A stretch of DNA of 64,000 nt from Tridacna crocea. Its lineage: Eukaryota > Mollusca > Bivalvia > Cardiida > Cardiidae. The notes beneath the pieces are model-generated. The model did no database searches. It worked only from the letters and a program-made list of their open reading frames with translations, and was not told where the DNA came from. The translations under genes were made by a program, and so were the position numbers. The stretch's first letter is position 1; the number at the start of each line of letters is the position of its first letter. The stretch lies in contig OX031065.1 of NCBI GenBank assembly GCA_943736015.1, positions 16,087,427-16,151,426 on the forward strand, read 5' to 3'. Shown piece after piece: positions 531 through 52,100 of this stretch.

Positions 531-544
531 TTTCGGAATAAACA

Positions 545-655
545 TACACAATTTTACCAATAGCGAAAAGTTTCGGCCCAGGTCAGCCTGCGCGGACAGC
601 GCAGGCTGACCTGAGTCGACACTTTTCGCAAATGCATTAAGCGCCCTTTTCACAT
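545..655. mobile_element. Family B hairpin MITE copy
   Basis: A near-perfect palindrome, caggtcagcctgcgc / gcgcaggctgacctg, is bounded by gcgaaaagtttcgg and cacttttcgc, followed by aaatgcattaagcg. This is the core and right end of family B. Confidence 0.7.
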
Positions 656-1289: not shown

Positions 1290-1812
1290 GCGTATGTAAC
1301 ACACGCGCTGTGTAGGGGATGATAATCCTAGTTATAACTGCGTTAGGGTACGAATGTTGATAAAATGTACCCACTATACTGACATTTGAAATCTTGATAG
1401 TAGTATAAGGGTCTCTTTGGAGTCAAGCAAAGATTATCATAACAGTACTACATATATTGTAACTTGTCATTCTCAGGGACAAGCAGCCACATTGATTAAC
1501 CTAGGCATGATTTAGGAACGCTAACAAGCGTATGTAACACACGCGCTGTGTAGGGGATGATAATCCTAGATATAACTGCGTGAGGTTACGAATATGTATA
1601 CAATGTACCCACTATACTGACATTTGAAATCTTAATAGTAGTATAAGGTACTGATATTTGAAATCTTAAGAGTAGTATAAGGGTCTCTTTGGAGTCAAGC
1701 AAAGATAATCATGACATTACTACATATATTGTAACTCAGATGTATATATGTTTGTTTGTCATTTTCAGGGACAAGCATCCACATTGATTAACATAGGCTT
1801 GATTTAGGAACA
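1290..1812. repeat. Tandem duplication, two copies of about 240 bp
   Basis: Copy 1 (1290-1527) and copy 2 (1528-about 1812) both begin gcgtatgtaacacacgcgct and both end near gatttaggaac. Copy 2 has an extra internal duplication of the gtactgatatttgaaatctt block. No coding potential is seen. Confidence 0.85.
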
Positions 1813-2266
1813 AACACGATAATGGGCGACATTATCTTGTGGCACTTAATTGCCCCTTTTTCAGCCAGCTTTTGACGTGTTTTTAATTGGACATTATACA
1901 TATAATTTTTGTTTCAGGCCAAGGGAATCGAACTTTTTTACAGGATACAAATGCGTCTTTTTTCACTACTCCCAATGTCTCGTTCAGATAAAAACAAAAA
2001 CAAAGCAAAAACGATGACTATTAAAGTAAAGTTTTAAACATAAACCCTTTAGACTTGAATTTTTAACAACAACAATTTGATTTTTTAACAATACCAGACT
2101 GATTATAAAAAAGATAATGTAACATGCCACTGCCTGGTTAATCACCCAGGTACTGAGAACAGCGCACGTTGCTTAACTAACCACAACGCACGTTGCTTAA
2201 CTATCACGAAAAGAAAATATATCAAACCACATCGTAGCTCTACAGCGTAACAGGTTTTAAGTCATA

Positions 2267-2695
2267 TACAGGGTAATTCATAATATATAATACAGTTTCA
2301 ATCCTTGATACTCTTTTTTTGATAGCACATACCTTATTATAATTTATATCACAATTCTCTACAATAATAACAGTTTTGATTGATATATAATGTTAAGTAC
2401 ACTCTATGCTTACATGTTAAATACAATAGGCCAGACTTTTTCACAGTATTTACATGATATGTCGTATGACGTTCATTCTGGACAAATTTGATGTCAAGTC
2501 CCTTTTCATGAAAGTCTGCTATCACCGATGAAAATATTTCTGGCATTACTTTTTCCATTTCTCTACAAAAAGCTTGTTTCAACTCTCTGTCAGTCTTCGG
2601 TTTATGTTAATATACATTTTCTTTCTAGTGTAATGACAAGAAAAAGTCCAAAGAAGCATAATCCGGTGAATGAGGGGACAAAATATTGTCAGTCC
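2267..2695 (-). mobile_element. Mariner-like DNA transposon, 3' fragment
   Basis: The minus strand encodes broken pieces of a Tc1/mariner-type transposase C-terminus (LDFFL, then REMEKVMPEIFSSV, then HTTYHVN). The fragment ends at an acagggtaattcataa terminus, a form of end I associate with mariner-like elements. It pairs in inverted orientation with 2935-3462. Frame breaks make it non-functional. Confidence 0.55.
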
Positions 2696-2934
2696 TGAAT
2701 CAAGTTTTCCCGATAGTGTCATGAAGCCATGACAATGCTGAATGTGCCTTGTGGGGTGCTACTTCACACTTATAATGAAATTTCTCTACATAAATAAAAA
2801 ATTACCAAATTAAGAAAGAGTGCTGTGATTAGACATTCTTTTAATATGTTGGAGACACAACTATTATTGAATCTTACCTGACATTGCTGAAAAAGGTTTT
2901 AGTCAGCTTTAAAGCGAAAAAGAGGTTGAAAGAC

Positions 2935-3462
2935 ATTTGTTTTCAACAGGATGGAGCAGCACCACATACAGTACATTCAGTATTGTTGTGGCTTTATGAA
3001 ACTTTCGGGAAAACTGAACATCTTCAGGACTGAAAATTTTTGGCCCCTTCATTCCCCGGAGCATAGTTCTTTGGACTTTTTCTTATCCCCATCTTTTCTT
3101 ATGGGGATACTTGAAAGAAAATGTATATTAACATAAACCGAACACTGTGGAAGACTGGAGAAAAATAATGCCAGAAATGTATTCATCCGTGAAAGCAAAC
3201 TTTCGTCAAAAGAGGCAAACTTTCGTCAAAAGAGGCTTGACGTCGTAATAGTTTCGAGTGGACGCCATACTGCATATCATGTAAATGTTGTTAGAAAGTT
3301 TTACCTATTTTACACGTATGTATGAAAGTACCTAACATTATATATCAAACAAAACTGTAATTATTGTAGAGTGTTGTGATGTAAATTATAACAAGGAATA
3401 TGCTATCAAAAAAGAGTATCAGGGATTGAAACTGTATCATATGTTATGAGTCACACTGCATA
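2935..3462 (+). mobile_element. Mariner-like DNA transposon, second fragment in inverted orientation
   Basis: The plus strand reads FQQDGAAPHT, then LHSPEHSSLDFF, then VMPEM and RHTAYHVN in changing frames. QDGAxPH and SPxxxxLDFFL are hallmarks of the mariner catalytic domain. The last 200 bp are the reverse complement of 2267-2480, so the two fragments point away from each other. Confidence 0.6.
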
Positions 3463-4097
3463 TCTAACCTCTCTCCGTCACATTACTCGTCCCTTCGAGA
3501 AATCTCCACCTCGAGACACTTACGGCTTTATATAAGCTAGGCAATTGTACAAACTGGGAGAAATGACTGAGTTCGGGTATACGTTGCAACTCTGGGGATA
3601 TGCAAGTGCATACGCTAGTCTGTTCTTGAATAAGAACCATCACCAGCTATCTTTAGTTCATAAATCAGGGGAACAAAAGAGGGTAATGCAATTTCAGTCC
3701 GGAAGTTGCCATAATCCCACCACTGCCATCAAATGACCTTGATTAAGTTGAACGGAGAGAAAAAACACCACACCAGATTGCTATGTAACAGCAAAGCAGT
3801 TTTTAAGTCATTATATAACTAACCTCTTTCCTTGACCACAAATTGTTGCTCGTTTCGCTCTGTGTTTGTTCTACTTTTTTTTCATATTTCAAACCAAATT
3901 TACCCCATTTTACGGATTTTAAGGTAAATTGCGCAAAGTCTATACACACAAGGGTAAACTGTTGTCACTCGTATGTAACGGCGAAAAGACAATCAATATC
4001 ATTTTAAAGTTAAACTGTACATAAACATGTATAGGTTTACAACAATTGCAACATAAACATCTAAAACATTATAGCTGTAACAATTTCTTTTTTACAG
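3463..4097. other. Intron sequence before exon w1
   Basis: No gene or clear repeat is seen. A pyrimidine-rich tract (caatttcttttttacag) ends at 4097 and serves as the acceptor of exon w1. Confidence 0.5.
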
Positions 4098-4176
4098 GAA
4101 AGAGATGAGATACGCTTTGAAAGCTACTGCAGAATTGAACATGTCTTAACTGGGTTTTGGTTGCATGCTCTCAAAG
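4098..4176 (+). CDS. ITPR: ITPR exon w1, last MIR repeat
   Basis: Acceptor tttttacag, donor gtaaga, ends in phase 1. It encodes SYCRIEHVLTGFWLHALK, which aligns with SYVRLRHLCTNTWVHS of human ITPR1. This is the first exon recognisable in the window. Confidence 0.88.
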
Positions 4177-7100
4177 GTAAGATAAAAGTTCCAAATATAT
4201 ATCTTCCTGTTGACTACCTCATTTTTCACATTTGATGCATGTGAAAAAAGTAGTTAGAAGCTTGGAAAGAAAGTTGTGTTAGCATTGGAGTGAGAAAACC
4301 AGGAAACACATGTACGCACTGACAACTGTGATGTTACCTGACCAATTAGAATAGCATTAAACTTCAAACGAACGAACGAACAAACAAACAATTAAAGCTT
4401 TTCACTCAATTCTGAGTTTACATAACTATGAGGAAAAGGGTTTTTGAAAACAATTTCCACCACTTAAGCCTGTTGCTACTTGGGTTTGGACAAGTAAAAT
4501 AAAATATATATGATAATAGCTTAATGCATTATGTAGAAACTTCCAGCGTGCCTATTCCATAAAACAGACAATTTGTTTATATTCAACAAAATACCAAATA
4601 ATCTGTTTTCTAACACCCTTGAGGAAGAAGGCTTTTAAAAACTTTGTAAAAAGAAAATGCTGGAAACTTGCTTTTTTTCTTTTCCCACAATTTTTTGTCC
4701 CACATGACAGAAAAAAATTCAGAGCATTATTCAATATTTCATCGGCAAATAACTATCGTTTGAATGATAGTAAAGCATTTTTGTGTGGTAAAAGAGTTAA
4801 AAGACAATTGTTAAGATCAGCCTATATGCTTCGTGCGTAATACTTTGACTATAGAGCCATTTTTACAAATACAAATAAGCCAGGGGTAAAAGAGAGACTA
4901 ATTTAATAATCATCCTGATAGTTCTTTGAAAATGAGAAAAGAGGGTCTTAAATTTTTGAATTTTGAATTTCTCAAAGCTGGTAACTCCCTTGCCTACGGT
5001 TTTAGTCTTTTTACAAACAACTTAACACGAAACTTTTTATTCCATTCTTATTGCTTCAAATTTGATACAAGATGTTTGTAAAGAGTTTAAACTAGTGTGA
5101 CATCATTATGTTATTATTGAATACGAAAAATGAGTTCGTTCGAATGTGCTGTATATTTCATTCTATAAATCTAAAAAGAAAGAAAAAGCCATTTACCTCA
5201 GCATGTTGCTAAATTTCAAGTTTTCTGAGCATTGTATGAAAACAAAATAACGTGATTCCAAAGATAAGTGGTAAGTTTCTTGACTAGATTAGAAAAAGAA
5301 AAGGAAAAAAAAAACAACAACATTTGAAGTTTAATCTTTGATTTGCTTTGTCCAGATGAAGACTACATTCGAAAGAAGTTCCGAGACGTTGAGAATGTAA
5401 ACGATCAAACTCTGAGAGGTTTAAGATGGGACAGCGCCATGGTGCGCCAGGTAGAGTCTTATTTGTTCTAGTTCTTGATATATTGGATGTTTTAAAGATG
5501 CCGTGCCTATTTGGCCTAAGCGGGACAGTTTTTCCATTGCTAGGGGTCTCTGTTTTATCACCAACAACGGGAGGTATTTAGCTTTAGTAGTGCTTTACAT
5601 ATAAAACTTGTAAGACAGTTCTGCTCCTTTCTGCGTTCCTAGTTGTGTAGTTCTTGGTGAACATTCATCAGTATAAGCGCGACTAAAGCTGCTTTTGTGG
5701 ACAGTTTTTAACTGAGATCAGACAATACAGAGTGTGCAGTCTGAGTGTGATTTACACCGCCCTTTGTAGTCGCCCTTTGTATCTTTATAATCTTCGGAGC
5801 ACTATAAGGTTAGTCATCGGTTTACAGTACAAAAGATATCGTTATGGAAGCATTTCATTTTTTAACTCGAATTTTGTTTTATATTTCAAGTAAAATAGAG
5901 AGAGAGAGAGACAGAGACAGAGAGAGGGAGCAATGTAAGTGTATTAACATTTGACGCCCAATAGCGGCCCCTTTAAACAATTCTGTGTATAAGATACAGA
6001 TAAATTTCCTTCATGCCAATAAAAATCACGGCGATTATCTTATGTCAGATGATCTGCTTAAGTAAAAGTGCTAACAGTTCTAATTTTCATTTTGATCACC
6101 TTAAATGACCCTCTATTTAAGGAATTGTTCCGTAGGCCTACAATAAATATGTCTAATGGAATTTTTTGGTTTTTTAATTAAAATTGCACAATTATATTTC
6201 ATATTAAGGACCCATGTGTAAAGGTTAGTTGTCATGGCAGCCATGTAAATGTATTTTCTTTTTCGACTTACTTTTACGATGTTCAAGAGAACATTTATTC
6301 AGAATTATGCATGGGTGCCATTTTGTTTCAAATCAAAGTACTAAACATACTGAAATTCACTGCCTGATCGAACGCAGAATTGAAATGATGATTCATGAAT
6401 AATAATGAAATGTGGTATTTATGTCTGAAGAGTTAAAGTATGTTAAGTTCATTTGATGTTTTTTTCATATCTTTTTGATAATTACTTATAATACCATATT
6501 AACTGCTTGCTTGCCAACGCTGCATGGACTTGTACGAGCTTGATGTCATTCTAAAAAATGTTGGCGTACAATACCGGTACCATTTACGAACACCCTATTT
6601 AATCAACTTGAAACGGATTGTGTCTTCTTTGATTTACTACGCTGATGTAAACATCTAATTACAATTTTTAACATCTTAACAAGAATGACGAGTTAAAATT
6701 CGGGTGTGTTTCGCAGTTGGAATCAAGTTACTATAAATCAGGGCTCTGTTTACGAAGAGTAAACTTTTGTTTCCCTGAACGACAATTCTATTCAGGATTG
6801 AATTTATTTTTGCTGTAATATGAATATGAAATACCATCATGTTGTAAAGGCATGTGCATGTGTACGTATGTTGTTTTGTTTGATTGCCAAGACAGTTCAG
6901 GTTGGTTTAAAGAACGGCATGACATTTGCTAAACATATGCAGTTCAATTAGTTTTATTAATTAATTATGTAGCATCATTCTCATAGTTTGATAGATGTAT
7001 ATGCAAGAAGCTCATGAGACAATGCATTCAAGATAAAACACAGCTTCTTTTTTCAACAAATTCAGCTAATAAGTATATTTTCAGGGAGTAGTTAAACCTT

Positions 7101-16100: not shown

Positions 16101-19100
16101 CCTTACAAATGTTACAGATAATAGTGATCACTATAACCTTCCTTTGTAATTTGTCATAGGGTATAGTGATCTCTATAACTTTCCCTTATAAATGTTACAG
16201 GTAATAGTGATCACTATAACCTTCCCTTGTAATTTGTCATAGGATATAGGGATCACTATAACCATCTCATTTAAATTGTTATAGGGTAGAAATGATTACG
16301 CCATCAACGTCATCACGAAGGAGTTGCGATATCTGACCTGGGAGGAGACCTTCCTTGCCCTGCGATCAGACATTCTACCCGACGCCATCAGAGCCAAATA
16401 TTGCGACATTACGACAAGTGAGAGATGATTAAAGCCATGCTCTGACAAAAGAGGGTTAACCTATTACCACACAACCCCTACTTTTGACGCCCCTGAGAAA
16501 AAAGCCTTTAGAAAATATTGTGGGAAAAAGAGAAAATGCTGGTAACCAGCATTTTCTTTTTTTTTCCACAATGTTTTCTACCCTTCCCAGAACAAATTTC
16601 AAATTTTCAGTCACTTTTATTTTGTCGTCTGCAAATGCTTTTAATTTGAACCAGTCTAAAATATTGTCGTTGGGTAATGAGTTAAATACATCTTCGAAAT
16701 GCATGATACCAAATAATGATGAACCAATAAAAAAGTTTTGTATAATAACCGACTGGATAATGACATACTATCGCCCTTAGACATGCAGAGAATTCACAAA
16801 TGGCAAAAAAGTGTCGATTCATTTCATCTTGCGCAGACTGCACAGGCGGTCAAGGGTCGATACTTTTTTTGGCGATGTATTAGCCCTTTCCCAAACGACA
16901 AACTTTTGGACTAGACCAAATTGAAAGCATTTGCAGATGACAAATCAACTCTTGCTGAAAAGATGATTTCTGCCTATGATAGGGTAGAAAACATTGTGGG
17001 AAAAGGAGAAAATGCTGGTTACCAGCATTTTCTCCTTTTCCCACAATGTTTTCTAAAGGTTACTTTTCCAGACCCGTAAAAACCAGGGATTGTTTGGGAA
17101 AGGGTTAAACCCCCTTTTTCACTGAGCGAGGCTCATATCATTTGTTTAGTGCAATTTATCATTTTCTAAACAGTTCTCTTTCTGAGTTATTAACAAAATT
17201 TGGGTTTTCATTACATAGAACTATACGTAGATACTGTATAGCAAAAGCTTTCAGCCACGGTTTGAGCCGAGAAAGGGACAATTCGATGTTTACACGACTG
17301 CCAGGCATAATTTTTAGAAGTTCAAGTAAAACAAACGCCAACCTTTATTCTTACATATGTTAGGGCCCGTAATATTTCTAGGGTTTTAAAATAGTAGACC
17401 CGTAACACTTCTAGTTCAGCATGGAATAAAATTTCGTGTTAGATGATAAATTCGGATTTATACAGATATCATACTTTTACCCATTTTTAACCGACCAGAA
17501 ATTCCTTTGATGTATATCTTTAAATTATTTATTGATACTTTCGTTAATTTTCAGAAAAGGAAGGTAATTATTATCTCCCTTTGTAATGGGAATATAGTGA
17601 TTTTAGATTTATAAATGATAATTCCAAGAAGACAACAAAAAGAAAAAGCGGCTCGATTAAAGTACTATAAGAAAACGTTACTCATTATTTTAAATGGCAG
17701 CAAATTTTGTAGGATAATATTGTAATGGAAATAGCTGTTTTCTATTATGGGTCCACTACGTCAAGTAAAGTCACACTAAACACTCCGATACTACTCGACT
17801 ATATCTTACTGATTATTTTCTCTACGCGCAGGTTTGTTTGTAGACATAGGAAACAACTATTCTGTACTAGCACACCCAAACATCTGTTTTGTGTATGACT
17901 ATGTAGGCTCCAAAGACGAAGAGAAAAGCCAGGGAGACTTTGTAAGTAAATTAGCTTCGCGTAAGAACAACCTGTGATGCACTGGTCCTTTTCCCAAATT
18001 TCTTCTAAACAAGGTCATTAAAAGTCGGGAATGTGCGGTAAAGGAATAAAGGGAAGAACATTTTTTTCCGACCCCGGTATTTTGTAAATATCACTTGTCA
18101 TAAACATCAACCATCGCGTTTTCTTACATGTTGTAACAATCACGTTAGTGATCGAAAACAACTGTCAGTGTAATTACCGTAAATCTACAGACTTTAATTC
18201 TTGCATCTTTTTTGAAAAAAAAAATCGGTAGTCATGTCATTGAAACATGTTCACAATTTTGAAGTATAATAGATATACCTTTTTCCTGTAACTTTTTGCA
18301 ACACAAAATTTTATGCTCAATTTATGCCATAGACTACAAAAAAGTTGTCGATGTAAACTTAAGCAAACTATGTTAAAATGGCTGGGTTGATTTTTCTACA
18401 CAGATCGTAAAGGAGCTGGTGGCCATATTTCCTGTGTTACGAGACTGGATTGCAGAGTTTTTGTCAGAAAACAAATGTATGATAGCGTCCGATATTGGTC
18501 ATAACATGCTGATTGAACAGGTAAAACGCTGATCGTAAAGTTACAGAACAGAACAGAACAAATATTTTGTTGGCTTTACACATTAACGTTTCTAATCCAT
18601 ACATGATTATTTTAACATTTCTCAAAGGTCTATAAAAGTGAATTAATAAATATTAGAAATTAGTAATTGGGAAATGATCATACACATTGATATATGTGTT
18701 AAATAAACACATATATTGAGAGTATAATCTGTAAGACTGATTATCCAAATAATTCATTTTTTCTGATGGCAAATGTACATTTTATAAAGTAAATTTATAA
18801 GATTTTGGAGGGTCCTTTTATTATTAGAAGAAAGCAGTTGACAAAGTTTTTGCATATTCGGTCTTATTCTACAATACATGTAAGTATCAATATATCTTTT
18901 TCTTATGAATTCATATTTACAACAAATGAAAATAAAATGAAACTCATCCTATATGTCTCCATTATGACATGTATTACAGAGCCTCAAATTTCTTTCTACC
19001 CAGTTCCCACCATAGCGACCGGCTTGTATATGTAGAAAAATATGTTTGAGTCATCTTCTGCTTAAAAGGGGGCTTAATGCATGTCGGTAATTATAGGTTG

Positions 19101-22100: not shown

Positions 22101-25100
22101 CATCACCCTCCCCAAAGTTTGGGGGATTAGAGTAACACGCGCTATAATGTAACTATTGAGAAAATTGCTTTTTTTAATGCATTTGAGGAGAAGTAGGCCT
22201 GCTTTAGCTCAAGTTTCTCTAAACTGCTGATGATAGCTGAATGAATCGCATCGGGTAGCGCTTTATCGAGTAAACGTTTATTTAGTTTGAAATTCAAATT
22301 AATGGCTGTGACGTAGAAAAGTAGTCCGGTTCTGTACCGAGAATGCCCAATTTAGATAGTTGTGTATTGGTAGAATGCCATCTAGCGGGAGATTATTTTT
22401 TTTCTGTTAGTATATTCACAATCAAGAAGCTTGTTCCGTAAGACGTGTAAGCTACTATACTCAAGTTATTACTATGACTAAGATGCAGGTATGTGTTATA
22501 GTCAGGCAGGTAGCGTGGCCGAGCGGTCTAAGGCGCTGGTTTAAGGCACCAGTCTCTTCGGAGGCGTGGGTTCGAATCCCACCGCTGCCAAATTAAATTT
22601 TTTGTCACAACTTTAATTTTATCAAATGGTTCGGTGTTTTTCCTTCAATTCATTATGAGTCACTGTTATCATCTATTTACCCTTATCGTTCTAAATAATT
22701 GAAATGGAGTTATCAATTCGACTGTGAAAAAAAAAAACAAAACAAATATTGCTATTTCAGAGTTATGTTTTAGGGGAATCATAATTATCTTGTTATCGGA
22801 AAGTGTAGATCTAAGATCAGACTGCACGTTCTGTGCAGTCTGATTTTAGATCTACGCCGTCCGCTAAAGGTCAGCGAGTCGCGCTTTGCAGCCTAAGGGT
22901 TTACATTATTCAACTCTTATCCTGCTAAATATGTGAAATGAAAGATTATCCCGTTAGCACACGACAAAATTTTTGACCTATCCAAATTGAAAGCCTTTGC
23001 AGACGACAATTTAATTGTGGCTCAAAGTGTGCATTTTTGCATTGATAGGTTAGAAAACTCTGTAGGAGAAGAAGAAAATGCTGATTACCAACATTTCCTC
23101 CCCCTCCCACAATGTCTTTACCACACAATCCAGAGTTTTCACGACCCTGATAGAGAGGTCTTCTGGGGACATTGTGGGAGGAGGAGGAAATGTTGGTAAT
23201 CAGCATTTTCTTCTTCTCCCACGTTGTTTTCTACCCTTTCATAGTCGGATTTCAACATTTGGGTAGGATTAGTTTTGTCGTCTGCAAATGCGTTGTATTT
23301 GGACTGGTCTATGATATTGGCATTTGGTAAAGAGTTAAATCTATGTAATGAATTTATACTTGATAAAGTTATATTGGTAATGTCCAAGCATAGGCCTGGT
23401 CCTTTATTGTGGGCTCGATCTTCTGGCAATTGGTGAGTATGATCTATGCTTTGTGGGTTGGGGAGTGTATTGATGCATCTCCAAGGTATTGACCCATGTC
23501 AGCGCAGGCTGGCATGGACTGAAATCTCCCAATTTTCTGTATATCCAAGTAATGGTTTATCTCCTGATTCGGTCGGGTATTAGACAGGGTGGACTTTATG
23601 GATCCGTGATTATGTATTGAATTGCTTGGTATTCTATACCACGGAGATGCATTGGGCCCCCTTTTGTCGGAGCATGGTTCAGGTACATTCTTGGTCTGGG
23701 TTCGGGCCCATTTGGCGGGATGAAAGCTGCAACGACTTCATCCCGGTACTTTGTATTAGTTGTTTACGTGACGTCAACGTTACCTTGACGTTGCGTAAAC
23801 TACTGAACATTACTGCAGGCATTCTATCACAGGATCACACTTGAAGAAGGCGGTTGTACCGCCGAAAGCTTGTGTTCATTTTATAATTAAAAATATGATA
23901 GAGGGTTAAGCTGATAGTAAAAACCCAAATTTGGCTATTTCAAAGGTAGTTTTTATAAGGAAAACATGTTTTAATCAGACTGTATATCAAGATCAGACTG
24001 CAAGTTTCATGCTGTCTGATCTTGATATACACTGTCTGCAAAAGGTCAGCCAGTCGCGCTTAGCAGCCTAAGGGTTAACCTATTTTTTGCCTACGTCAGA
24101 CAAAGATAGACATAGTAATTGTTTATGATAACGTTATAAATACATTTCCACGCGTAAGTTAGTTACAACGAAACGGTTAGATCTGGATCAGACAGCATAA
24201 ATAATGATTGTGCTGTATTATTTCTGGCTTACACTTGAAATATTTTATCAGACAAACATCTGTTTATACACCATTGACAAAGCGACGTGAAATTTGTCGT
24301 CTGCAAATGCTTTCGTCTATTTTTTTTTCGAATGCCTTGATCCATTGGCAGGCGAAAAAATGTCTCACCTGTCAATATCGAAAGTGAAAAGTAAATTGAG
24401 TAAATGAAGTAGGCCTAAATATTATACTGTTGCGATAATGTTTTCAAAAGTGGTCTGCTACAGGGATGAAGAGAGAGAGAGAGAGAGAGAGGGGAGGGAG
24501 GGGAAATGTTGAAAGGGGAAGAAAAGGAAGACAGACAGACAAACAATGAAAGGGAGGGGGCTGATTCGGTTTAAATATCTTACTTTTCTAGATGTTGATA
24601 GGTAGTTAGCAACGATGATCAAATATCGAGAAATTATATTTTGTAATCAATTCAATACGTCACCAACTCGAGTTAAATTCAGGTGACCTACCAGCTATAA
24701 ATTATCGATAACCAAGTATTCACGCTGACAACCGTCAGGTAGCGTGGCCGAGCGGTCTAAGGCGCTGGTTTTAGGCACCAGTCTCTTCGGAGGCGTGGGT
24801 TCGAATCCCACCGCTGCCACAGATATTTTTATTCTTTTTTTTTTTCATTGATTTTTGAATTAATATTTAATATAATTAAAGCTGACTTGGGTTATAATTA
24901 TGTAATGTTTGGCCAGTAGACCCGTTTTAAATCTCAGTCTGTCCCTCGAACCATATTGATATTTCGAGGAGGTAATCGAGAATCTACTCCATTCGGCGCC
25001 GTAGGCGAAAACAGGGATATTTGCGGATGGCATAGGTCAAGATCATACTGCACAGAACGTGTAGTCTGATCTTGAATCTATATCATCCGCTTGTTTAGTC

Positions 25101-28100: not shown

Positions 28101-31100
28101 ACAATAAGTAAGGGAGGTAAGCGATGCAAGAAAAACTAATAAGCAAAAATATAAATTGAAAAAAAGTACTTTTACTAATTTTTTTTTCGAATTACAATAT
28201 TACCAGGTTGCCATTTGATAGATGTAGATTTCAAAATTAATCATATCAGAAACTTGTTGATTTGCCCTTTAAACATATTCTTCTCCTAAACCACTGGGCC
28301 AATATTGATGAAACTTAGCAGGGATATGTTGGTCTACCAAAATTGTTCAAAGAACGTTCCTATTACTTGCAGATAATTTAGAAATTCAAACACACTGACT
28401 CAACGCAAGTCTGCGCAGGCTGAACTGACTATATTACTATACAGATGCATTAAACCCCCTTTTCACAGAGTATATCTAACAAAACCTGTCATAGCTCTTG
28501 TGTGTTTATTTATATTGTCATTTAGTTTTGTCATGTTTGGGCACGAACTTAAATTTGGTCACCCATTTCAGTTGTGCAACTTAAGATATCAGGTCTCGTA
28601 ACCATAAGGTCCTGAGTTCGATACCCGGAAGCGGGTGTTAACTTTAGGGATTTTTCATTGGCCCACAAATTCGGCGTGAGTACTGGTGTAGTTCCCAGGA
28701 AGTGGAATCGAGAGAGATTAGTATAGGTTGTAAGAACTTGTTTCTCATTCAATGTAAAATAAATATGTTGAAATAACATCTGCATGAATCCTCAATTATT
28801 TCCATATTTATATATCTGTTGTATTGTATGTAGTCCTCGATAGTATAGTGGTAAGTATCCCCGCCTGTCACGCGGGAGACCGGGGTTCGATTCCCCGTCG
28901 GGGAGCATTTCTTTTTCTTTTTATTCACCGAAGCACAAAGTACTCCACGTCAAATTTTGTGATCGTGCCATTAAATCCCGCTAGATGGCATTCTATAAAT
29001 ACTCATCTATCTAATTTGGGCATCCTGGCAATCTCCGAGCAGAGTTGTCGTTCGTTACTCTCACATACATCTCTGCGATGGGCTAAATGACAAGAATCTT
29101 GTCAAACCGAGGAAAATATGTTTTGTTACTGTTTAACTATTCCATGTGTAAAATTATAAGGTTGACGAAGGAAATATGATTCTGGATACATTATAGAAGT
29201 GTTCAAACTGATGAATTTACCGGTATAAAATGGAACTATTTTTTTCGAGCCTCTTTACTGATAAGAATCAAACGCCAAGTTTATCAAAAAAGGCTGCGCC
29301 CATGAATGATAACAACAGTTTTGACACACCGATAAATCTTAGGTAATAAGATTAAAAAAACAAGTTATGGTCCTTTAAAAGGCATGTAAGCTTTTCAGAA
29401 AATCCGTCTTTTTCACATTTCCTACCACTTAGGGCATAATACCATAAAACGCCCCGCCATAAATCGCGAAAACCCATGAAAATCAAAATCATGTGTCAAA
29501 AAATTGCAACTGGTTTATGGATTCATTTCGTATACATAAAATACAATATTTTTCAACGGAATGAAGCCGAACATTTCATTAAATTTCTTCATTTAACCCA
29601 AAAAACAATGCCACATGTAAGCATTGTCTGTGTAGCAGAGGGGCGTTTTACGGTATTATGCCAAATAAACGTTTACTCAATAAAACACTATCTCGTATTG
29701 ATAAAAGCCATTATCTCCATTGATACCTTATGCCGCGTATTCTTACAGTCTCCCCGATATCGGGGAGAGTGATGCGTCATATAAGACAGTTCGAATCCTC
29801 GAAGAATATGACATGCGCAGACAACGGTGATCGTGCCGTACCTATTAGACATCCGTCCTGCGTTTTTTACACACAGACGTATGTTTTACCGTGAGAATAC
29901 GAGTATATATTTAGAGTGTCTCTTACAACGTTTTAAAGAGGGACGTATATTTCACCGTGAGAATATTTCATGTGTTTTTCATACGCATTTTTAGCTCCCC
30001 TTAGCGTAAAGTGTTAAAAATGAGCTATTGTGAAAGCCCTATGTCCGGCGTCCGGCGTCCAGCGTCCGTCGTCCGTCGTCCATCGTCCAGCGTCCGTCGT
30101 CCGTCAACAATTTGCTTAAACATATTCTTCTCCTAAACTACTGGGCCAATCTTGATGAAACTTAGCAGGGATATGTTCCTGTGGTGAAGTTCTACCAAAA
30201 TTGTTCAAAGAACTGAATTCCACCCATAACTCTGGTTGCCATGGCAACAAAAACGAAAAAAATACAAAATTTTTGAAAATCTTCTTCTCTGAGACAAGAA
30301 GGCGTGAGCTTTGATATTTGGTATGTGGCATCTCCTAGTGGACCTCTACCAGGTGTGTACAAATGATGCCCCGGGGGTCAAAACTGGCCCCCACCCCGGG
30401 GGTTACAAGTTTAAGCATAAGAACAATGAAAGGAGAACTTTAAAAATCTTCTCCTTGAAACTTGAAGGTGTAGAGGTTTGATATTTGGCATGTGCCATCT
30501 CCTAGTGGACCTTTGCCAAGTTTGTTCAAATGATGCTCCTGGGGTCAAAACTGGCCCCACCCAAGGGGACACAGGTTGGAGCATAGGGACAAAGAAGGAA
30601 AACTTTAAAAATCTTTTCCTCTGAAATTTGGAGGTGTAGAGCATTGATATTTGGTATGTTGCATTTCCTAGTGGACCTCTACCAAGTTTGTTCATATGAT
30701 GCCCCTGGGGTTAAAATTGGCCGCGTCCTAGGGTTACAAGTTCAAACATAGGGACAAAGAATGAAAACTTTAATATTCCTCTCAAAAACTAAAAGGCATA
30801 GAGCTTTGATATTTGCTATGTAGCATCTGCTAGTGGACCTCTACCAAGTTTGTTCAGATGATGCCCCTGGGTTCAAAACTGGCCCCACCCCGGTGTCACA
30901 AGTTTGGGCATAGGAACAAAAAAGGAAAACTTTTAAAATCTTCTACTCTAAAACTAAAAAGCGTAGAGCCTTAATATTTGGTCTGTGGCATCTCCTAGTG
31001 GACCTCTTTCTACTTTGTTCATATGATGCCCTTGGGATAAAAACTGGCCCTGCCCCGGGGGTCACAAGTTTGAGCATAGGAACAAAGAAGGAAAACTTTA

Positions 31101-37100: not shown

Positions 37101-40100
37101 CCATTTTTTCCGCCAGCAAATAACACCTTGATGAGCCAAGCAATAGCAAGGTATCATCTTCATAATACATGTATTTTCTATACTGTTAATATTTTAAAAT
37201 CTCGATTGTATTTGGCCACTATAGAGACTTTATACAAAAAGTACAACATATGACTTTGAAATATTTTTTTTTCGGATTGTGAATACATTGTAACAAAAGG
37301 TGGACTTGTAAAATTATCTTTTCTTTACATATTTTCAGGATCTATCAAACTACAAGTACAACAAAATGATCATGAAATCGCTGAACATTCTAAACAAGAT
37401 CTACTCCTCAAAGATGAACATGTTTAATCTTGCAAGTAAAGCCCAGGTAAGGCCATCCATACTCTATGAAGAGGGTTTGATACGTCTGCTAAAAGTATTA
37501 AACTTTCGGCATGTCCAAAGAACGGCTACCTCATGAATAAGTCTGTTTTGGGGACACAATAGATTTTTTTTTATCCATATTTATTCATTGAGATGACATA
37601 GATGCATAAAACACCCTTTTGTCAGAGCCCTATTCATATGAGTGGCACTCTTGCAGAAGGGGGCTTAATGCATCTCTGTTATACACAGTACTATATGCCA
37701 AGTCATCACATAAATATGGGTCCTTAGAAGCCATTTTTTTCAATAATCAACTTAATCATGAGGTAGATTGGTCCTAGATTGACAAATGGAAAATTGACCA
37801 ATAGCAAAAACTTTTGGCCCAGCTCAGCCTGCGGTGACTGCACAGGCTGACCTGGGTCAATACTTTTCTCAGATGCATAAAGCTCCCCCCCTACTTTTCA
37901 CAGAGCTCATATATTTTAACCCCTTATCGAACAACAAAAATCTTAGTTTTATCTTGATTGGAAGGACACACGAAATCTGGCTGAAAGATTTGAATTTCAG
38001 CTCTGACAGGGTAGAAAACAATTTGGGAAAAGAAGAAAATGCTGATTACCAGTAAGAAAGTATGGTTGACAGGTAGGGATTAGTCTTCGAAAGGACAGAA
38101 AATAATGCGGAAAAAGGAGAAAACATTGGTTATCTAGCCTTTCCCAATATGTTTTCAAAAGCTTTTACTTTCAGAGTCATTTAAACTGTGCTGACAATAT
38201 GTTTTAAACAGTTGGGGCTAGTTGCATAACAGCAGTTTAAGGTTAAACCTAGTTTAAGCCATAATGAATTCATGGCTTAACTAAGGTTAAATTGCCTTTG
38301 TTCAACTGGCCCCAAGTTGAAGTTTTACTGTTGATTCATGCAGCTTAGTCCACTTTTAACACGATGATACCTCATTTATTTTTGTGCTTCTGGATTTGGC
38401 CTGCTCTTGACAAAATAGCTCACATGGTAGAGCAATTAACACATGCTAACGTAAAATTTCGGGGCACTTGAGGGTGTAGATTCAATCTCCCAAGCTGGTC
38501 AACTTAAATTTCTTAAGGATGTCTCGTATAAGATGGTTCCCATGTGAAGCTGCTAAACATGAAGTATGTTAAGGCACCAGATATAATTTAGGATGGATTT
38601 GGTCCTTTACCTTGCAATATCCCTAGTAACCAAACAAGAGTCTCCCAGGAGGCGTCACTCTTTGAACGCAGAATAAACACATCACAAGAATAACAGGGAA
38701 ATTACGAGTAGATCATGGGAATGCCCCAGTTGTACTCGTAACTTCGCTGTAACTCTTGTTCAAACTTACTCAGCAAAGAGGATAGTGTAGATCTGAGATC
38801 AGACTGCACATATGGTGCAGTCTGATCTTGTTCTAAGCAGTCAGCTAATGCGTTACATGACATATTGTGGCAGAGGTGCGTTTAAAATGGCTAATAAAGT
38901 CAACGATCTATATTTTTTTAGATATTGCTGACCCAGGATTCAGCCCGTGTCCACAGAGAGGTGTTAAAGAACATGCCCATTTTACGGCGGCTGTCCAGGG
39001 CTAAACTGGACGATCAGCAAGTCAAATTGATGGGAAATATCCTAGATGATCTGGCAGAGTAAAATTACAAACTGTTCAAAATAATGGCCTGCAACACGCA
39101 AAAAGGGGCATTCGAACATTTGCATAACGTGTCGGCCCAGATCAGCCTTTGCAGCCCGCAAAGGTTAATCTGAAATGATACTTTCTGTTTTCATGTAATT
39201 TTCTAATTTGCGCAAATCTGCTGTAGCACAAAATCTAATGTAGTCATAAAGTGCCATCTTGGATTAGCCTGCACGGACTGCGCAGGCTGATCTGAGACAA
39301 CACTTTAGGCAAATGTCTGAATGCCCCTTTTTGGCGTGTAGCAAGCCAGTCATAATATGGTTAAAGTCTGTGAAAAGGGAATTGACTGAATCTGCAAAAA
39401 GTATCTATCCAGGTCGGCTTGCGCTACCTGCGCAGGCTGACCTGGGTCGATACTTTTTGCTTTTGATCAATTTTCTGCATGTCAAAGGATCAGTTTACCT
39501 CACAAATCAGCTGTCTATAATCATGATGTGATGATTTGCTTGGTATGATAGATCACAGAGATGCAGTATACCCCGTGTTCCCAGTGGTGCTATATCGTCA
39601 GTTTATTTCAAAAGCGTCTTAACTACAGCTTGTTTCAAGCTGTAGTTTTGAAGTAAACTGATGACATTTTGATTGATTAGACCCTGTTTTGCCGCATCTA
39701 TTGTTTTTAAATTGGACAAAATGAAACATTGGACAGATGGTTGTTTTTACCTAAAAGACAAGACGGACATTGTTGGGAAAAGAGCGATTGCTTGTGACAA
39801 GTAATCCATCTTTTCCCGCCATGTATTCAACAGTAGTGTTCAGTATGGATGTAGAATATCTGCCATAAAGATATAATGTCTTGGAAATATTATGAAATCG
39901 GGGAAAAACTGTCTGAAACTTAAAAAGATTGATTATTGTCATACCTCACCTTGAAAAATTGCAAAGAGCGTCAGGTACTCAAGAGCATGTCTTCAGTTTA
40001 CTTCAAAAACCTCGTAACTACAGCTTGACACATGCTGTAGTTACGAGGTTTTTGAAGTGAACTATGTGTAGTGTGAGGAAAACAAAATACAGTTTTTCAA

Positions 40101-43100
40101 GATTCCACTGTCGGAAACTGTCGCAGATCCAGGTAACAATCTGTACATGTATAAATTATATGAGCCGCGTCAAGCGATTAGGGGTCTAAATGACATTTGG
40201 AACAAGTCCGGTTTTTCCGCACTTAAAGTGACGTCATTTTCCTACGTCATCTTTTATGGTTTTAAAACTGAACCAAACATTTTTTCGTGTGTGTTTTGTG
40301 GTGTTTTTATCTGGATTCAACTCATGGACATGGAGGACGAGTTAGCGGTAAGTATATTTCATTCATTTCAAACAATTCCGTGTTTTTCTTCGTGGTAGAA
40401 GTGCTGAAAACCTATCAATATTGGCCGTATAATATTTGAAGGTCATACGTGAACGAGAAGACAAAAATAACAGATGGTTTGAAAATTAGAGTGATGCTGT
40501 GGGTCTAAGCTGTATTTATTTCATGCTTTTCTTTCGCCATCTCTGAATTCAACGAAGCTTTCTCTAATTATGATCGGTCTGTAAATCTTATGTTTAATAT
40601 AGATATTCCGATCTTGACATCTAAATATTGACCTAGATGTGATAAAAAGATTAATTTTAAGCGCGGTCGTAAAAATTTAAGAAATAATCAGACTCTTTGA
40701 ACCAAAAGGAAACCATTGCAGAGTAAGGCTTTTAATTAGAAAAATGTAAGATCAAACCTGTTTATTTTTCGTTTTCTTAAAAAAAAAAAAGATTTTATCT
40801 AACCATTTCAGTCCAAAATTAGTAATTAGTATTATATTTATTAATAGAAAAGGTATTGTGGATCTGTAGTGCAACGGTCTGAGTGCCGACTTCAGGTCGC
40901 TGAAAACTTGCTTCCGTGGGTTCGAGTCATGCTATCAACATGAAATGAAATAGTTTTTTTTTTTTTCCTCCATGAAAATAAACATGCCATAATTATAGAT
41001 CAAATAAATATTTCAACATGCATTGGATCTTTAAATGAAGAAACGTTCTTGTTTCTTTTTCCAGGAACTAGAAAGTATAATATCAGATCACTTTGGGAGA
41101 ACTCCAGCTAACTCCCAGCTGAGTGAAAACGGTGACGATGACGATCTTGCTGATTATGTTGAGCAGGACCCTTCGATTGTAGAGGATTTAATCGACAGCA
41201 GAGTCAGAAGCTTTTTGTCAAAAGAGAGTGAGGAATTATCGGAGAGTGATCACAGTGATCATACAGAGGAATGCGGCGTGGATGCCAGTGTTGGAATTGA
41301 AGATGTTGAGGAGGAGGGTACAAATATTCTTGACAATCTTGGTGAAGGAAATGTTTTTGCTGATGACAATGATGTATATTTTAATGAAGGACATGTTGAT
41401 GAGCTACGAGAGAAAATAGAGAGATTCCGGTCGCATCGTTGTTGTCGCCTGAACTGCTGTAATAAGTTTTCCTTCGAGCAATTTTATAAACATATTCTAG
41501 ACATGCGAGAAATGGAAAAAGAAACGAAGGAAATGTATCTTATGGGATTACTGAATGATGAGGGAAGTATAGTGACGACAAAGCGGGGAAAAAAGAGACA
41601 AAGGATTAGAAGGTCGCACAAGTTTCTTGGGACAACAGTTTGTAGGTCTACCTTCCTCCTTTCGCATGACATCGGCAAAAAATACCTCGTTACTTTGAAC
41701 AAACATCTGTCGCATAACGGCGTTGTTCCAAGAAGACATGGTAACACAGGAAAACGTCCAGTCAATGCTCATTCATTCGAGGATATTCAACGTGTGGTAC
41801 ATTTCATAAAAAATTACGCAGACGAGCATGGAATTCCCCAACCAGCCGCACCGAGAGGAACAGATAATATCCCGCCAATTTACCTGACTTGTGGTACAAC
41901 AAAATCCCAGTTGCATAAAGACTATGCCGCAGTATGCACCGAAATGGTCCCACCAGTCAAAGTGGTTTCTTTGACAACATTTAAATCTGTGTGGGGTGCA
42001 TGTCTCTCACATATACGTATTGCAACACCAAGAGAAGATGTCTGTTCTACGTGCGAAAAGTTGCGTCGAAAGATAATGGATGCCGTGACGGAGGAGGAAA
42101 AATTGGAATCTACCAATACTATGAGACAACACATTCTCCTAGCACAGCAGGTATGGGTAATTTTTTTTAACCTTCATTTTTTATTAAAAAAAAAAAAACT
42201 ATTCTTTTTCAAACATTATTATGTGGCTTATGATTACAAAGTATTTGCGAAATCAGTAAATTGTATTGCATCTGAAATGTGAATAAAGATCAGACTTCAA
42301 AAACGTGCAAACTGATCTAAGTCCACGCTTTCTTCGAGGTATGTCTGTGGTTACGAAAGGCAAGGTTAAAGGGATAATAGTTCACAATAGCTCTACCCAG
42401 TATAGGAGTGTGTCTTCTGTGAACAGTTTATGTCACATTGATGCTTACTACACAATGAACATCATACAGTTTACTAGTAATCATTCAAGACAAAACGACA
42501 AATTTAGGGTAACTTCGACGGCGACAACTACTGTAACTAACCTCTCCCAAGATAAAGAATATCTAACGAATTTCTCTTTACAGGCACAGTAACGCTCAAA
42601 AGTAAATAATGCAGGTGTAAAGTGCATTTGAAATAGTTGTGAAGATGAAATATTGTAATTGTACGGCCGGTCCAACTTTTTGTCGCTGGCGGAAAAATTA
42701 ATTCTAAGACTAGGATGAAACTTGCCAGGTCGCTCAATGTTTTGTTTACTTTTTACCTTTTTTTTTTTAAATTTCTTTTTGTTTTTCTGCCAGATTTACA
42801 CTTGGACCAACGATATAACAATAGTTTGTCATTATCACAATAGTTTGCATACTTTTACAGGATATGATTTAATACTAAATGCATTATTACACCGGCATGT
42901 TTACTATTGGCCGCTACAGGGACTTTAAAACGGATTATCAGTCTGTAGCAGTTTAATTTATTTCAGGAACGAGACCTGTACAATAGATGTGTTCGACAGA
43001 GTAGAGAGGCTGGTCTGGCTCATTACACTTTCGATTTCAGCCAAAATGTGTGCCTACCTCACTTCTCCAGGCAGATGGGACCCCTGTATTTCATGACCTT

Positions 43101-46100
43101 GCGGAAACTTCAGATTTTTGGCTTTCGAACGGACGGTATTCCAAAACAGTACAACTTCCTTATAGATGAGGATCAAACAATCGGACAAGACGGATCTAAC
43201 ACCCACGGACCTAACGCTGTTATTTCTATGGTAGACTGGGCACTAAATACTCACGGAAATCAAACGAGATCATTCTCCATTCATGCTGACAACTGTCCAG
43301 GTGAAGATTTTTATCTTCTGCCACTTTAAGAAATATCACACATTTGATTGATAAATGGTCAATACCAGTGTCATGTGGAGTAAAGTCGTGTAAACTGGCA
43401 ATAATTTGTATTTTAGGCCTGTATAGCATAGATCATTTTTTCACATTCTATTCTAGATAGGTATTCACAAAGTTAGACAAGCTACAATACATGGCCAAAC
43501 ATACTAACTGAATTTGGACAAACAAAGAGGCTAAATTTATATCCTGTCTGTTCTCATGAACAGAACTTTGTTTTTGTATATTGTAGTGTAACTGATGCTT
43601 TCAGTTCTGTTCTATTCTCATGCATGAACTGTTTGCTTTTCAGGTCAGAACAAAAACAAATTTGTAATGTGGTATTTTATGTGGCGGACAATGACGGGAC
43701 AGAATTCAACCATCGAATATCTTATGCAGGTCCCAGGTAAAATTATCATCATCTCAGCATATAACATTTGATCTTCAGTTCTTAGTGAACAATGAAAAGG
43801 AAAGATATCATCTTACATTTTCCACAAAGAGTGGAAATTAAAGTATTGTGTCCTATTACTTTTCATCGTTGGCCGTTCATTCATTCATTCATTCTTTCAT
43901 TCTTTCATTCGTTCAAATTTTAATTGCAGACATGTAATTTCATTTCTGTAGGACATGCCCGTTGTCTAGTTGATGGAAGTTTTGCTCACATAAAACGACT
44001 CTATAGACGCACTGATTGTGAAACGCTAGAGCAACTGCGAGATTTGGTTAACAAGTCATCAACCACGAATGAAGCTGTTATGTATCCATCTTGGTGTTGG
44101 AGGGATTGGAAAACATTTCTAAGTGAATGGTTTATACCTATTTCCGGAATACGGTAAGAAAAGGGTTCACCAACATTAAACTTAAACATAAAAAAGTTAT
44201 TCTCTGCGAACATAACTAACTTAGATCAGGCTGAGAATTTCGCACAGCCGGCCCAAACTTTCCCTTTTATGTAGATTAGTTTTCATATTGAATGGTGAAA
44301 TGCTTTTCGACTTTTATTAACAATGAATGATTTTTTATATGCACTGCTCTTCACAGTCTTCGGCAACTTTTTCAAGTTCCCCATTTTGTTGATGAAGATG
44401 TGCATTTGTGCATCAATAGACTCATGTTTTATCACCTATGTTTGCATCCTGCCCAAGCTTTTACGAGACAATACTAGACTGTTATTGTTCAACTGGAATC
44501 AAATCAGAGATAGTGTGTGTATCTGATCTTTGATAATCAACGTTTAGACAAACATTAATAAAAGTGTCTATAAAATTATTTACATATATCATTTTCACAG
44601 AAAATACCAGTATTTCCGTTTTTCTGCTGAAGAACCAGGTGTCATGACAGTTAAAGAAAGTCAGAGTGCTGAAGAGAAGAAGATAAATATTCTGAAAGAT
44701 CCAACACTTAGGTTCAATGAAGCACGAAATACCCCCGCAATCCTACAGCCAGCAGGACTGAGTCGACAACGCCACAACTATCTGTTTAAAACAGTCCGAC
44801 CTTACATACGACCTATTCATCGAGATATGTTTTGCCCCCCAGAGTGTTAATTGTTGATATGTTCACGAATTTAGATGTGCATCGGTACTTTTACGCAGTT
44901 CCATTGTGTGCAACTTAATGAACTCAGTCGCCAGTAAATATCAAAAGTTTTAAGTGAACTAAATAAGAATTTGTATATTTTGCGTTATCCGTTGCTAAGC
45001 AACCATCTGTGTGTGAAATATGAGGATTTACTTCATTACACATTTAACAGTTGATAATTACATAAAATGTGCTTCTGTCCCTTTAAATGTATACAATAAC
45101 GATACAAAGAACAGACATGTCATTCAGTTTGGAACGTGAAAAGCGTGACGTCAAAAAAATTACAACGTGCTTACAACGGTGGCGTCTTTTGCATAGCCGT
45201 TTCTTGATAATTTGTAGGGATATCTTTGAAATTTTTATACCACATGAAAGGTAAAGTGTTATACTTCAATTTACAGTGAAAATCTGAAAATCGACCAAAA
45301 TGTCATTTAGACCCCTTTTTGCTTGACGCGGCACATATGTTTTTTCCAAAATTGAAAGCAGATGACAAAATAAACATACTGAAAAATTGAAACTTGTTTC
45401 CAGCAATCTAGAAAACGTTGTGGGAAAAGGAGAAAATGCTGGTCACCGGGAAAAAAGGCTTTTTTCTCAAGATCGTAAAAACCAGGGATTGTTTGGTAAA
45501 GGGTCTATCTTACGCTTCATTCTTAAGTTGTTTTTTGCCCACAATCATTTTCTTTCTGTCTTTCTTTATTCTTTTTTTCCTTCTTGGGTCTCAAAGATTT
45601 ACCCATCAAGACACAATAGTATGTAAAAGATATTGATTATGTCAGTCTGGAAGATTGCAATTGAGTGTGAGGGGAAAAACGAAATAAAACTTATCTGGTC
45701 GTTTTCAGATTCTGTCACCTCCCAATGACCCCAGATGAGCCCCATCCAATGAATCAGAACATTATGATCAGCAACGGTATGTATATCAGTGAATATTAAC
45801 CCTTATCCTGTTAAATAACTACTAGAATAAAATATTTAATTCTATAGTGAAAACCCAAATATTGATATTTCAAAGTTTGGTTTGAGGAATGATATCTCCT
45901 TCTTGAACAGTGTAGATTCAAGATCAGACTGCACATTCTGTGCAGTCTGATCTTGATCTACATTGTCCGCAAAAGGCCAGTGAGTCATGCTTAGCAGCCT
46001 AAGGGTTAATTCAGTAATGTTTTGTAAAGAAGTGGGGCTTTATGCATCTGTGAATTTAAACTTATTTGATTCAGCCAACCAGAAGTTGCATTAATTGCTT

Positions 46101-49100: not shown

Positions 49101-52100
49101 GGATATGACAAATGAAGACAGGTATGTATAAACGGGGCATAATATCATCCATTTATTTCAAAAACCTCATAACTACAGCTTGTTACAAGCTGTAGTTACA
49201 ATGTTTTTTAAGTAAATCAACGATATGCCATAGTGTAGTACATGTATGCTTCCTTGCGTTCGTATTTGCTTCGAAGTGCCAGGTAAAAGTTGATATATCC
49301 TGTGACCCAAGATCTCGCAAGATGTCAGAGTTTTCGTAGTCAACGAGAGGCAAATGCAAGCAAATACAAGTATGAGGATGGGTCCTACAACCAGACATTC
49401 TTTTCATTTTGTACATAATATCATATATACATAAAACTTTCAACATAAAAAACAAAACAAAACAGGAGAACATGAAATCTCGTATACGTGTTTGCTTACA
49501 TTAGTTTGACTACAAAAGTTATATGGGTGTAATGCAGAGAAATGACCTTCCCCTACAAAATGACCCAGGTCATTATTCTATGTAGAGAAATGACCTCAGA
49601 AGTCATTTCACTACATATAGGAATGACCCGGGTCACTATTTTACGTAGAGAAATGACCCTTCATCCATTTAGGCCAAGCACTATTACTTTATTTGCTTAG
49701 TTTAGGTACCCTGCAGCTCTTTTTCGTCCTGGTATAGTTTTTGATCATTTGGTACTAGATATTTAGCGAAGGGAAGAAGTTGATCAGAATGTGTTGTACG
49801 ACATAATTGGGCAGTGCTGTCATGGCAAGGAAATATTCTAAAGATTTTCAGTTTTTCATTTTCATTTTCTTTTCTATAACAACAAGGTTGAAGATTCTGA
49901 CAGATCCGGGAGAAATATCCAGTTTACGATACTATATTAGTTTGTTAGATCTTCTTGCCGCTTGTGCTGAGGTATGTTACTTCATTTGGTTTATTCTTTA
50001 ATTTCTTGTATTTTTCTAACTTGTCTTTTTTTGAAACACTATTCCTAAGTGTGGCGAATTGCTAGAAAGTAGAATATTAACATTGTGTAGAAAGATAATG
50101 TCAAATCTCTATTAAGAACAGTATTTAGATTTAGTGGAAACTAGGTATGACGGGCGCGTCTTAACCCTTTCCCGAACAATCCCTGGTTTTTACGGGTCTG
50201 GAATAGTAGCCTTTTGAAAACATTGTGGGAAAAGGAGAAAATGCTGGTAACCAGCATTTTCTCCTTTTCCCACATTGTTTTCTACCCTATCATGGACAGA
50301 AATAATTTTTTCAGCAAGAGTTGAATTGTCGTCTGCAAATGCTTTCAATTTGGTCTAGTCCAAAGGTTTGTCGTTTGGGAAAGGGTTAACTCAGATCAGA
50401 CTTTGGGCATATTGTCTACATATAACAAACAGGTCCCTACAGACTGTAATATATGTCATAACAGAGGTACAGAAGATGAGTTTCATTTTATTTTTATTTG
50501 TTGTAAATGTGGATTCATAAGAAATTGATCGATATATTGAGAGTTTTTATAGAATAGGACCAAAATATGCAAAAACTTTATCAACTGCTTTCTGCAATCA
50601 ATAAAAGGACCCTACTTTATAAAATGTGCATTTGCCGTCATTTGCAGAAAAACAAAAGGCAGAGTTGTTGTCATAGCCCTTGCCCTGTCGTCTGTATCGT
50701 CGTCATTGTGCTGCAAAACTTTGATATTTTATCATATTTCTGTTTTTACTGAACATAATTATAAGCCATGCACTAGTAAAAGGGGGCTTAATGCATCTCC
50801 ATTTTATATATAATACTAGCCCAAGACATCACATAATCATGGATCCAAAATGCCTATTTTCTTCTATTTTTTTAACTCGTTACCAAACAACATTATTTTA
50901 GGCTTGTCCAAATCGAAGGCATTTGCAGACGACAAAATTGATGTGACTCAAAAATTGAAATTGTTTTGGAAGGGAAGAAAGCATTGTGTGAAAGGAGAAA
51001 ATGCTGGTTACCAGCATTTTCTCCTTTTCCCACAATGTTTTCAGAAGGCTTCTTTCTCAGGGTCATGAAAACCAGGGATTGTTTTCGAAAGGGTTAAGAT
51101 AACCTACTTAATCATGGGATAGATTGGTTATTACGAACAAAGTCCGTAACAAAGAAACAAATGAACAAAATGCACAGCAGAAATACAAACCGCATCTGGC
51201 AGGACTGGAACCTACAAATATCCTCGTTTTTCGAGGTTTAAAAGATCAATACCAAAACCATTGAGCTAAAGACATAACTGCCTAACACAGTTTTTATAGG
51301 TATTATATTGAAATCAGGACGAAACCATGCATGAAGGAATGGTCTCCTATAACATGGTCCTTTTACAAACAGAAAATTTACAATTAGCAAAAAGCTTCGG
51401 CCCAGGGCAGCCTACACATGCATTAAGATGCATTAAGATCCTTTTTTTTTTTTTTACACAACATGGCTCATATCTATTTCAAACTTGGATAAGTTGTTAA
51501 CTAGATGGAAAGGGGAGATCATTCAATAGAAGCAGGGAACGATCGTATTAAATTTTGACACAATTATAAATGCTCTTACCGGTATTTTTTTACCTATGTC
51601 TATACAGATAAGAGGGAGTGATGGTATTCTAAAACCATTATTTCTCTTTGAAGCCTTATGTTGTGGGTACTCATTAGAATCGTCTCGAAAAGATGATTCT
51701 TATGATTACCCACAACATAGGGTTTAGTGAAGCATAATCAGTATTTTCAATTTTGAAATCAAAATCACCCCCTCTATCTGGAGCTGTGTTAAGTGTCAAT
51801 TTTTACTGCAGGGTGAGAACATGTTTATAGAATCTTTGTGCCAGACAATTTTACCTATCGATGACTTGCTCTGGGTACTGAACAATGATAAGATCGACAA
51901 TGTATACAAGAAACCTTTCCTCAAGTGTCTGCACCACGTCTATATGAAAAGTGGAGACTCTGTGGTGGAATCAGGAGCCAGTGAGATGTCACATTTTGGG
52001 TTGGTACCCCCTTTTTGTATTTGGAAATCTGAAGGTCATGTTATAGTTTGTATATCTAATTTGTAGTTGACTAAAGTAAATGTCAGTGTATGGAAAGTAT

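Follow-up and report, generated by a model that had tools for sequence, protein, structure and literature searches.

The 64,000-nt stretch of the Tridacna crocea genome studied here (contig OX031065.1; G000:C10:16087427-16151426; called the window in the following) contains at 40161-45335 an element that is bounded by terminal inverted repeats (TIRs) and carries one recognised gene, which encodes a DUF7869 protein. We are highly confident that this element is an autonomous DNA transposon of the cut-and-paste type that was active recently, with the DUF7869 protein as its transposase.

Ends and further copies of the element

A preliminary description of the window had proposed 38-bp inverted ends with about four mismatches and a TA immediately outside both of them. 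Both proposals hold. The two TIRs match at 34/38 positions, i.e., with 4 mismatches (BLAST identity 89.5% over 38), and TA adjoins either end (Table 1). The conserved pattern of the TIR core occurs at two places within the window, which are the two element ends, and was matched by 0/100 shuffles.

We used the left 111 bp of the element as query against the host assembly (1.05 Gb, 31 contigs). This provides at least 26 matches, two of which are the window's own ends; the 24 others are together covered by 15 retrieved stretches (L021-L035). Seven of them (L021-L027) are aligned by BLAST over the full 1-5175 of the element with 99.2-99.7% identity. Together with the window copy, they form a set of eight young copies, which show pairwise 7-17 differences (99.67-99.87% identity, aligned bases only). 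These are located on contigs C1, C2, C3 (two), C5, C10 (two) and C18, with equal end bases in differing flanks, which argues against the young copies being segmental duplicates of one insertion. Three older copies (L028-L030; about 79-84% identity) are also full length and have the end points of the window element, such that all 11 full-length copies share their first and last bases. L031 has retained ~2.1 kb from the left part of the element (88% identity), and L032-L035 are fragments. That is, other copies with the same end bases, for which the preliminary description had proposed to search, are present, seven of them with intact genes and other flanks, and the shared ends of young and older copies support its linking of DUF7869 to a cut-and-paste-type element via the TIR framing.

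All eight young copies have retained the 662-codon frame as well as the ten splice-site dinucleotides, and their proteins differ from the window protein in 1-3 amino acids. Among the gap-free columns of their alignment, 12/1986 coding and 30/3181 other columns are variable. The older copy L030 has an open frame of 667 codons; the frames of L028 and L029 are broken. The recent activity suggested by the preliminary description is thus supported as far as eight near-identical copies with intact frames are concerned, and we infer the movement itself.

Target sites

For each full-length copy, we compared the dinucleotides flanking both ends. They are equal in 11/11 copies, compared to 72/110 pairs formed across copies. 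The target dinucleotide is TA in 9/11 copies, TT in L030 and TG in L029, and these two non-TA flanks point to a duplication rather than a mere target preference. The target-site duplication is therefore 2 bp long, with T at its first position and A, T or G at its second; it is mostly, not strictly, TA. The targets are AT-rich and TATATA-like. We rejected a 4-bp duplication: the flanking 4-mers are identical in 6/11 copies, yet also in 51/110 cross-copy pairs, i.e., the match is explained by the TATA-rich target. The flanking 8-mers match in 0/11 copies, which leaves no sign of an 8-bp duplication.

The preliminary description had also pointed to empty sites. Here, the repeat that hosts both L026 and L030 has an uninterrupted relative in the left flank of L024, i.e., a paralogous element-free target for these two copies. 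It falls short of base precision because the length of the AT-run at the junction is variable.

The DUF7869 gene

Its six exons are joined via five GT..AG introns into 662 codons plus stop. We compared exons and introns with those of the older copies, with exon 6 including three bases beyond the stop codon. Exons are 89.3-100% and introns 70.6-80.3% identical to L030; the respective values are 88.8-100% and 68.6-79.9% for L028 and similar for L029. The window protein shares 584/662 amino acids with that of L030, with nonsynonymous and synonymous divergences (dN, dS) of 0.059 and 0.241. The higher similarity of exons compared to introns and dN < dS support the exon model as well as selection acting on the protein, so the preliminary reading of six exons with 662 stop-free codons is confirmed.

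The Pfam domain DUF7869 (PF25273) is found on residues 450-598 (E 9e-15, 55.2 bits vs. a cut-off of 26). The nearest named proteins are from clams, i.e., Ruditapes (51% identity, 96% of the query), Mya (57%, 75%) and Mercenaria (58%, 69%). The named DUF7869 relatives found come from bivalves, a hemichordate and cnidarians; they are annotated as 'uncharacterized', 'hypothetical' or 'DUF7869 domain-containing'.

Within intron 1, a stretch at 40858-40939 looks by eye like a tRNA-Leu with a long variable arm and has a T-run after it. It is common to all eight young copies, with extra changes in the window copy, and decayed in L028-L030. No tRNA gene was called there by ARAGORN (window, L021-L030) or Rfam (window, L021, L022, L025, L026, L030).

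Table 1. Features of the DUF7869 element (positions within the window).
Feature	Position	Strand	Remark
TIR transposon	40161-45335		5,175 bp, 38-bp TIRs, one six-exon DUF7869 gene (PF25273)
Left target-site duplication TA	40159..40160	.	dinucleotide equal on both sides in 11/11 full-length copies
Left TIR, 38 bp, TGAGCCGCGTCAAGC...	40161..40198	+	first base common to all 11 full-length copies
Exon 1 (start codon at 40324)	40324..40347	+	24 nt; 100% identical in L028-L030
Exon 2 (acidic N-terminus, cysteine-containing region)	41065..42150	+	
Exon 3	42967..43300	+	holds the first two putative catalytic aspartates
D393 codon (HYTFDF), putative catalytic residue 1	43033..43035	+	D in 207/210 aligned proteins
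E438 codon, near-invariant acidic residue, end of strand 3	43168..43170	+	E in 209/210, Q in L037
D478 codon (HADNCPGQNK), putative catalytic residue 2, end of beta-strand 4	43288..43290	+	D in 210/210
Exon 4	43644..43736	+	
Exon 5	43952..44153	+	holds the third putative catalytic aspartate
D520 codon (GHARCLVD), putative catalytic residue 3	43972..43974	+	D in 189/191 ungapped rows of 210
Exon 6	44601..44850	+	ends with stop codon 44848-44850
Right TIR, 38 bp	45298..45335	-	
Right target-site duplication TA	45336..45337	.	

Predicted fold and possible mechanism

Structure models of two homologues (P0001 and L036, see below) show a retroviral-integrase-like (RNase-H-like) fold with a conserved set of three aspartates (DDD). 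In the P0001 model, the counterpart of D393 is placed on beta-strand 1 of the core and that of D520 in the helix after strand 5. The second and third aspartate have 41 residues in between (DD41D). Among weak Foldseek matches, the best for the P0001 model is TnsB (E 3.3e-3), and the L036 model reaches 3.5e-3 with viral proteins; giant-virus IS4-like proteins are also among these weak matches. A sequence search of PDB chains provided one match, which was insignificant.

With fixed TIR ends, a 2-bp duplication and a modelled RNase-H-like fold with DDD, the element appears to fit the cut-and-paste TIR class (DDE/D). We can thus sketch how it may move. The cysteine-containing, helix-rich N-terminal part of the protein would bind the 38-bp TIRs, and D393, D478 and D520 of the RNase-H-like core would hold two metal ions. 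The core would cut at the TG..CA ends and join them to the target, which would be cut with a 2-bp stagger, resulting in 2-bp duplications that are mostly TA and lie in TATATA-like sites. In this sketch, the binding of the TIRs, catalysis, excision and present-day movement are predictions.

Bacterial relatives

A collection of 84,980 prokaryote species was covered by one scan, which detects only stretches matching [LIF]HADNCxGQ. It reported 9 stretches, of which 2 are relatives (L036, L037); a third one (L041) was obtained via profile searches and is from the same order as L037's genome. In all three, an intronless DUF7869 gene is the common gene of TIR-framed elements of ~2 kb, one of which is enlarged by a nested ISL3 element. 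They share the DD41D spacing and the TG..CA ends with the clam element.

L036 is from a Nitrospirales metagenome-assembled genome (MAG; 3.9 kb contig), where inverted ends at 200-3740 enclose the intronless frame as well as, at its 3' end, the nested ISL3-family insertion sequence (L036:2281-3621; exact 8-bp duplication CCCCATGT). In L037 (Ca. Thiomargarita nelsonii, 4.6 kb contig), the element spans 1632-3677 (2046 bp) with a perfect 36-bp TIR and matching TT/TT flanks. Its DUF7869 gene is divided between two frames that overlap (-1), and the overlap (L037:2637-2663) has an AAAAAAG run. This split could reflect programmed frameshifting or a plain frameshift; some insertion sequences use programmed frameshifting with overlapping frames of this kind. 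A frame beside the gene has a below-cut-off HPr-kinase-C match. The L041 element (1542-3599, 2058 bp) has a perfect 38-bp TIR and a gene of 631 codons. The outer 75 bases of this contig (1-75 and 3598-3672) form a perfect inverted duplicate, which overlaps a DDE_3 transposase frame, and the right flank of L041 may therefore be an assembly artefact.

PF25273 scores above cut-off in 1/235 genomes of L036's order (that genome itself), in 2/42 of L037's order (its own and L041's), in 1/369 genomes sampled in the class (its own) and in 0/14 controls. Binning errors are possible, since the three contigs are short (3.7-4.6 kb) and from draft assemblies; the nested ISL3 element, the DDE_3 frame on L041 and the missing introns argue for true bacterial residence. 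The bacterial elements would be insertion sequences that work like the clam element.

Another genome of the class (L042) was rejected as a chance match: PF25273 reaches 19.4 bits, below cut-off, on a frame that by eye looks like an unrelated gene of secreted/lipoprotein-like type. No relative was confirmed among 15 and 5 pattern stretches from IMG/VR, no plasmid match was found for the L036 protein or the second L037 piece, and no phage match for the latter. At E <= 0.1, none of the NCBIfam transposase models matched the L036 protein or the two L037 pieces; the same scan recognised the nested ISL3 gene of L036. A bivalve-like DUF7869 protein filed under a Sedimenticola MAG (P0029; 2.3-kb contig) groups with bivalves in the protein tree and is probably host contamination of the bin.

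Shared ends and protein tree

All clam and bacterial ends start with TGAG, TGGG or TGTG. Beyond that, the clam right end as found in L025 (TGGGCCGCGTCAAGCAAAAAGGGGTCTAAATGA) aligns to the L041 end (TGGGGGCGTGAAAGGCAAAAGGGGGTTTAAGGTGA) with a score that was reached by 0/2000 base-composition shuffles. This is the best among eight end comparisons, and the window's own right end, unlike that of L025, starts with TGTG. For the clam left end vs. L041, the score was reached by 80/2000 shuffles. The six comparisons with L036 and L037 (220-1680/2000 shuffles) show nothing in common beyond the first bases.

A FastTree phylogeny (midpoint root) was computed from 209/210 proteins, since the L037 piece was dropped for its length; L041 is absent. 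Here, a clade of 35 (support 1.0), separate from the bivalve sequences, includes both L036 and a named protein from a Desulfobacterales MAG. Another Desulfobacterales protein belongs to a clade of 28 (support 1.0). A third group, which also contains cnidarian proteins, includes one assigned to a Thioglobus MAG. The closest proteins to L041 by BLAST (P0160, P0180, P0159; 54-56%) are all from the clade of 28.

Relation to known transposon groups and alternative explanations

We compared DUF7869 with described transposases. The window protein has no match to IS630-Tc1-mariner (ITm) or Kyakuja-Dileera-Zisupton (KDZ) profiles at E <= 1. When 74 members are considered at E <= 0.5, neither profile is among the 25 of 56 families listed. 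In the scans covered here, DUF7869 had no significant match to a described transposase profile. ITm elements typically show a TA duplication; the DUF7869 element uses TA in 9/11 copies and also TT and TG. Mos1, an ITm example, is DD34D; DUF7869 differs by its 41 residues between the last two aspartates, its near-invariant DNC.GQNK and GH.....D motifs and its five introns. KDZ transposases are eukaryotic and combine cysteine clusters with an RNase-H-like core; the 8-bp duplication of Zisupton differs from the 2 bp observed here. The retroviral integrase core, whose triad is DDE, shows 12% identity to DUF7869 in the alignment; DUF7869 has DDD. Furthermore, no reverse transcriptase gene was seen in the element, and its 2-bp duplication contrasts with the 4-6 bp of retroviral integrases (PMC10045372). 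ISAzo13/Zator is the sole transposase profile among the 25 families listed (2/74 members, best E 0.1, not significant), and its duplications are 3 bp long (PMC10045372).

On balance, we lean towards DUF7869 being a new DD41D superfamily of bacteria and animals with a conserved terminal signature, at least one cross-domain move, intron gain in animals and ongoing movement in a bivalve. The proposed signature TGRG...GCAAAA.GGGGT.TAA is found in the clam right end and in one bacterium of the Thiomargarita order. The TA target, the DDD set and the cut-and-paste mode would likewise suit a deep, unrecognised ITm branch whose transposase is too diverged for sequence models, which we consider rather unlikely. 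Non-autonomous elements with passenger genes are common, and DUF7869 might be such a passenger or a regulator, with another transposase moving the element in trans through its TIRs. However, DUF7869 is the gene that the clam element has in common with three bacterial TIR-framed elements, and two homologue models are integrase-like with conserved DDD, which renders a passenger role very unlikely. An alternative in which chance inverted repeats frame a host gene or a segmental duplication has nothing in its favour beyond the single window taken by itself; given a chance expectation of 0.00 for the TIR core in the window and eight young copies with identical end bases in differing surroundings, we regard it as next to impossible.

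Some observations weigh against our assignment as an autonomous transposon with DUF7869 as transposase. The empty site lacks base precision due to the AT-rich flanks, and the flanking dinucleotides are unequal in L036 (TA/AA) and L041 (TA/TG). The putative DDD placement follows from topology and conservation on the models of two homologues, not from a superposition of side chains, and E438 (209/210) and D333 (206/210) are conserved as strongly as the proposed triad. Furthermore, Foldseek reports no match at E <= 0.001 for the P0001 or L036 model.

The kind of element is known, i.e., a TIR element with an integrase-fold transposase. Most likely, DUF7869 is the transposase of a transposon group of animals and bacteria for which we found no description. 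No published description of a DUF7869 element was found in the open-access literature covered, and searches on a described superfamily or on insertion sequences of Thiomargarita listed no title or abstract opening that names it; an earlier name is possible in Repbase, which was outside the scope. In a survey of class II elements across bivalves, open reading frames were sorted against 17 known DDE/D superfamilies (PMC10294476), and DUF7869-type elements could stay unclassified by that route. With our assignment, a Pfam domain of unknown function gains a likely function, and its element gains boundaries as well as a target rule. The eight intact, near-identical copies render activity directly testable, and the ~2 kb bacterial relatives provide compact versions for biochemistry and structure.

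Other features of the window

Directly left of the element, 39600-40063 contains nested foldback repeats, with 33-nt arms (94% complementary, 3 nt apart) and 55-nt arms (82%, 354 nt apart). A repeat of ~190 bp with an internal near-palindrome is found many times in the window (e.g., 16917-17108, 50161-50352) and also in the flanks of several copies; it is probably a family of miniature inverted-repeat transposable elements or foldback elements. Finally, three tRNA genes are predicted in the window, i.e., Leu(AAG) at 22509-22590, Leu(TAG) at 24738-24820 and Asp(GTC) at 28834-28906.

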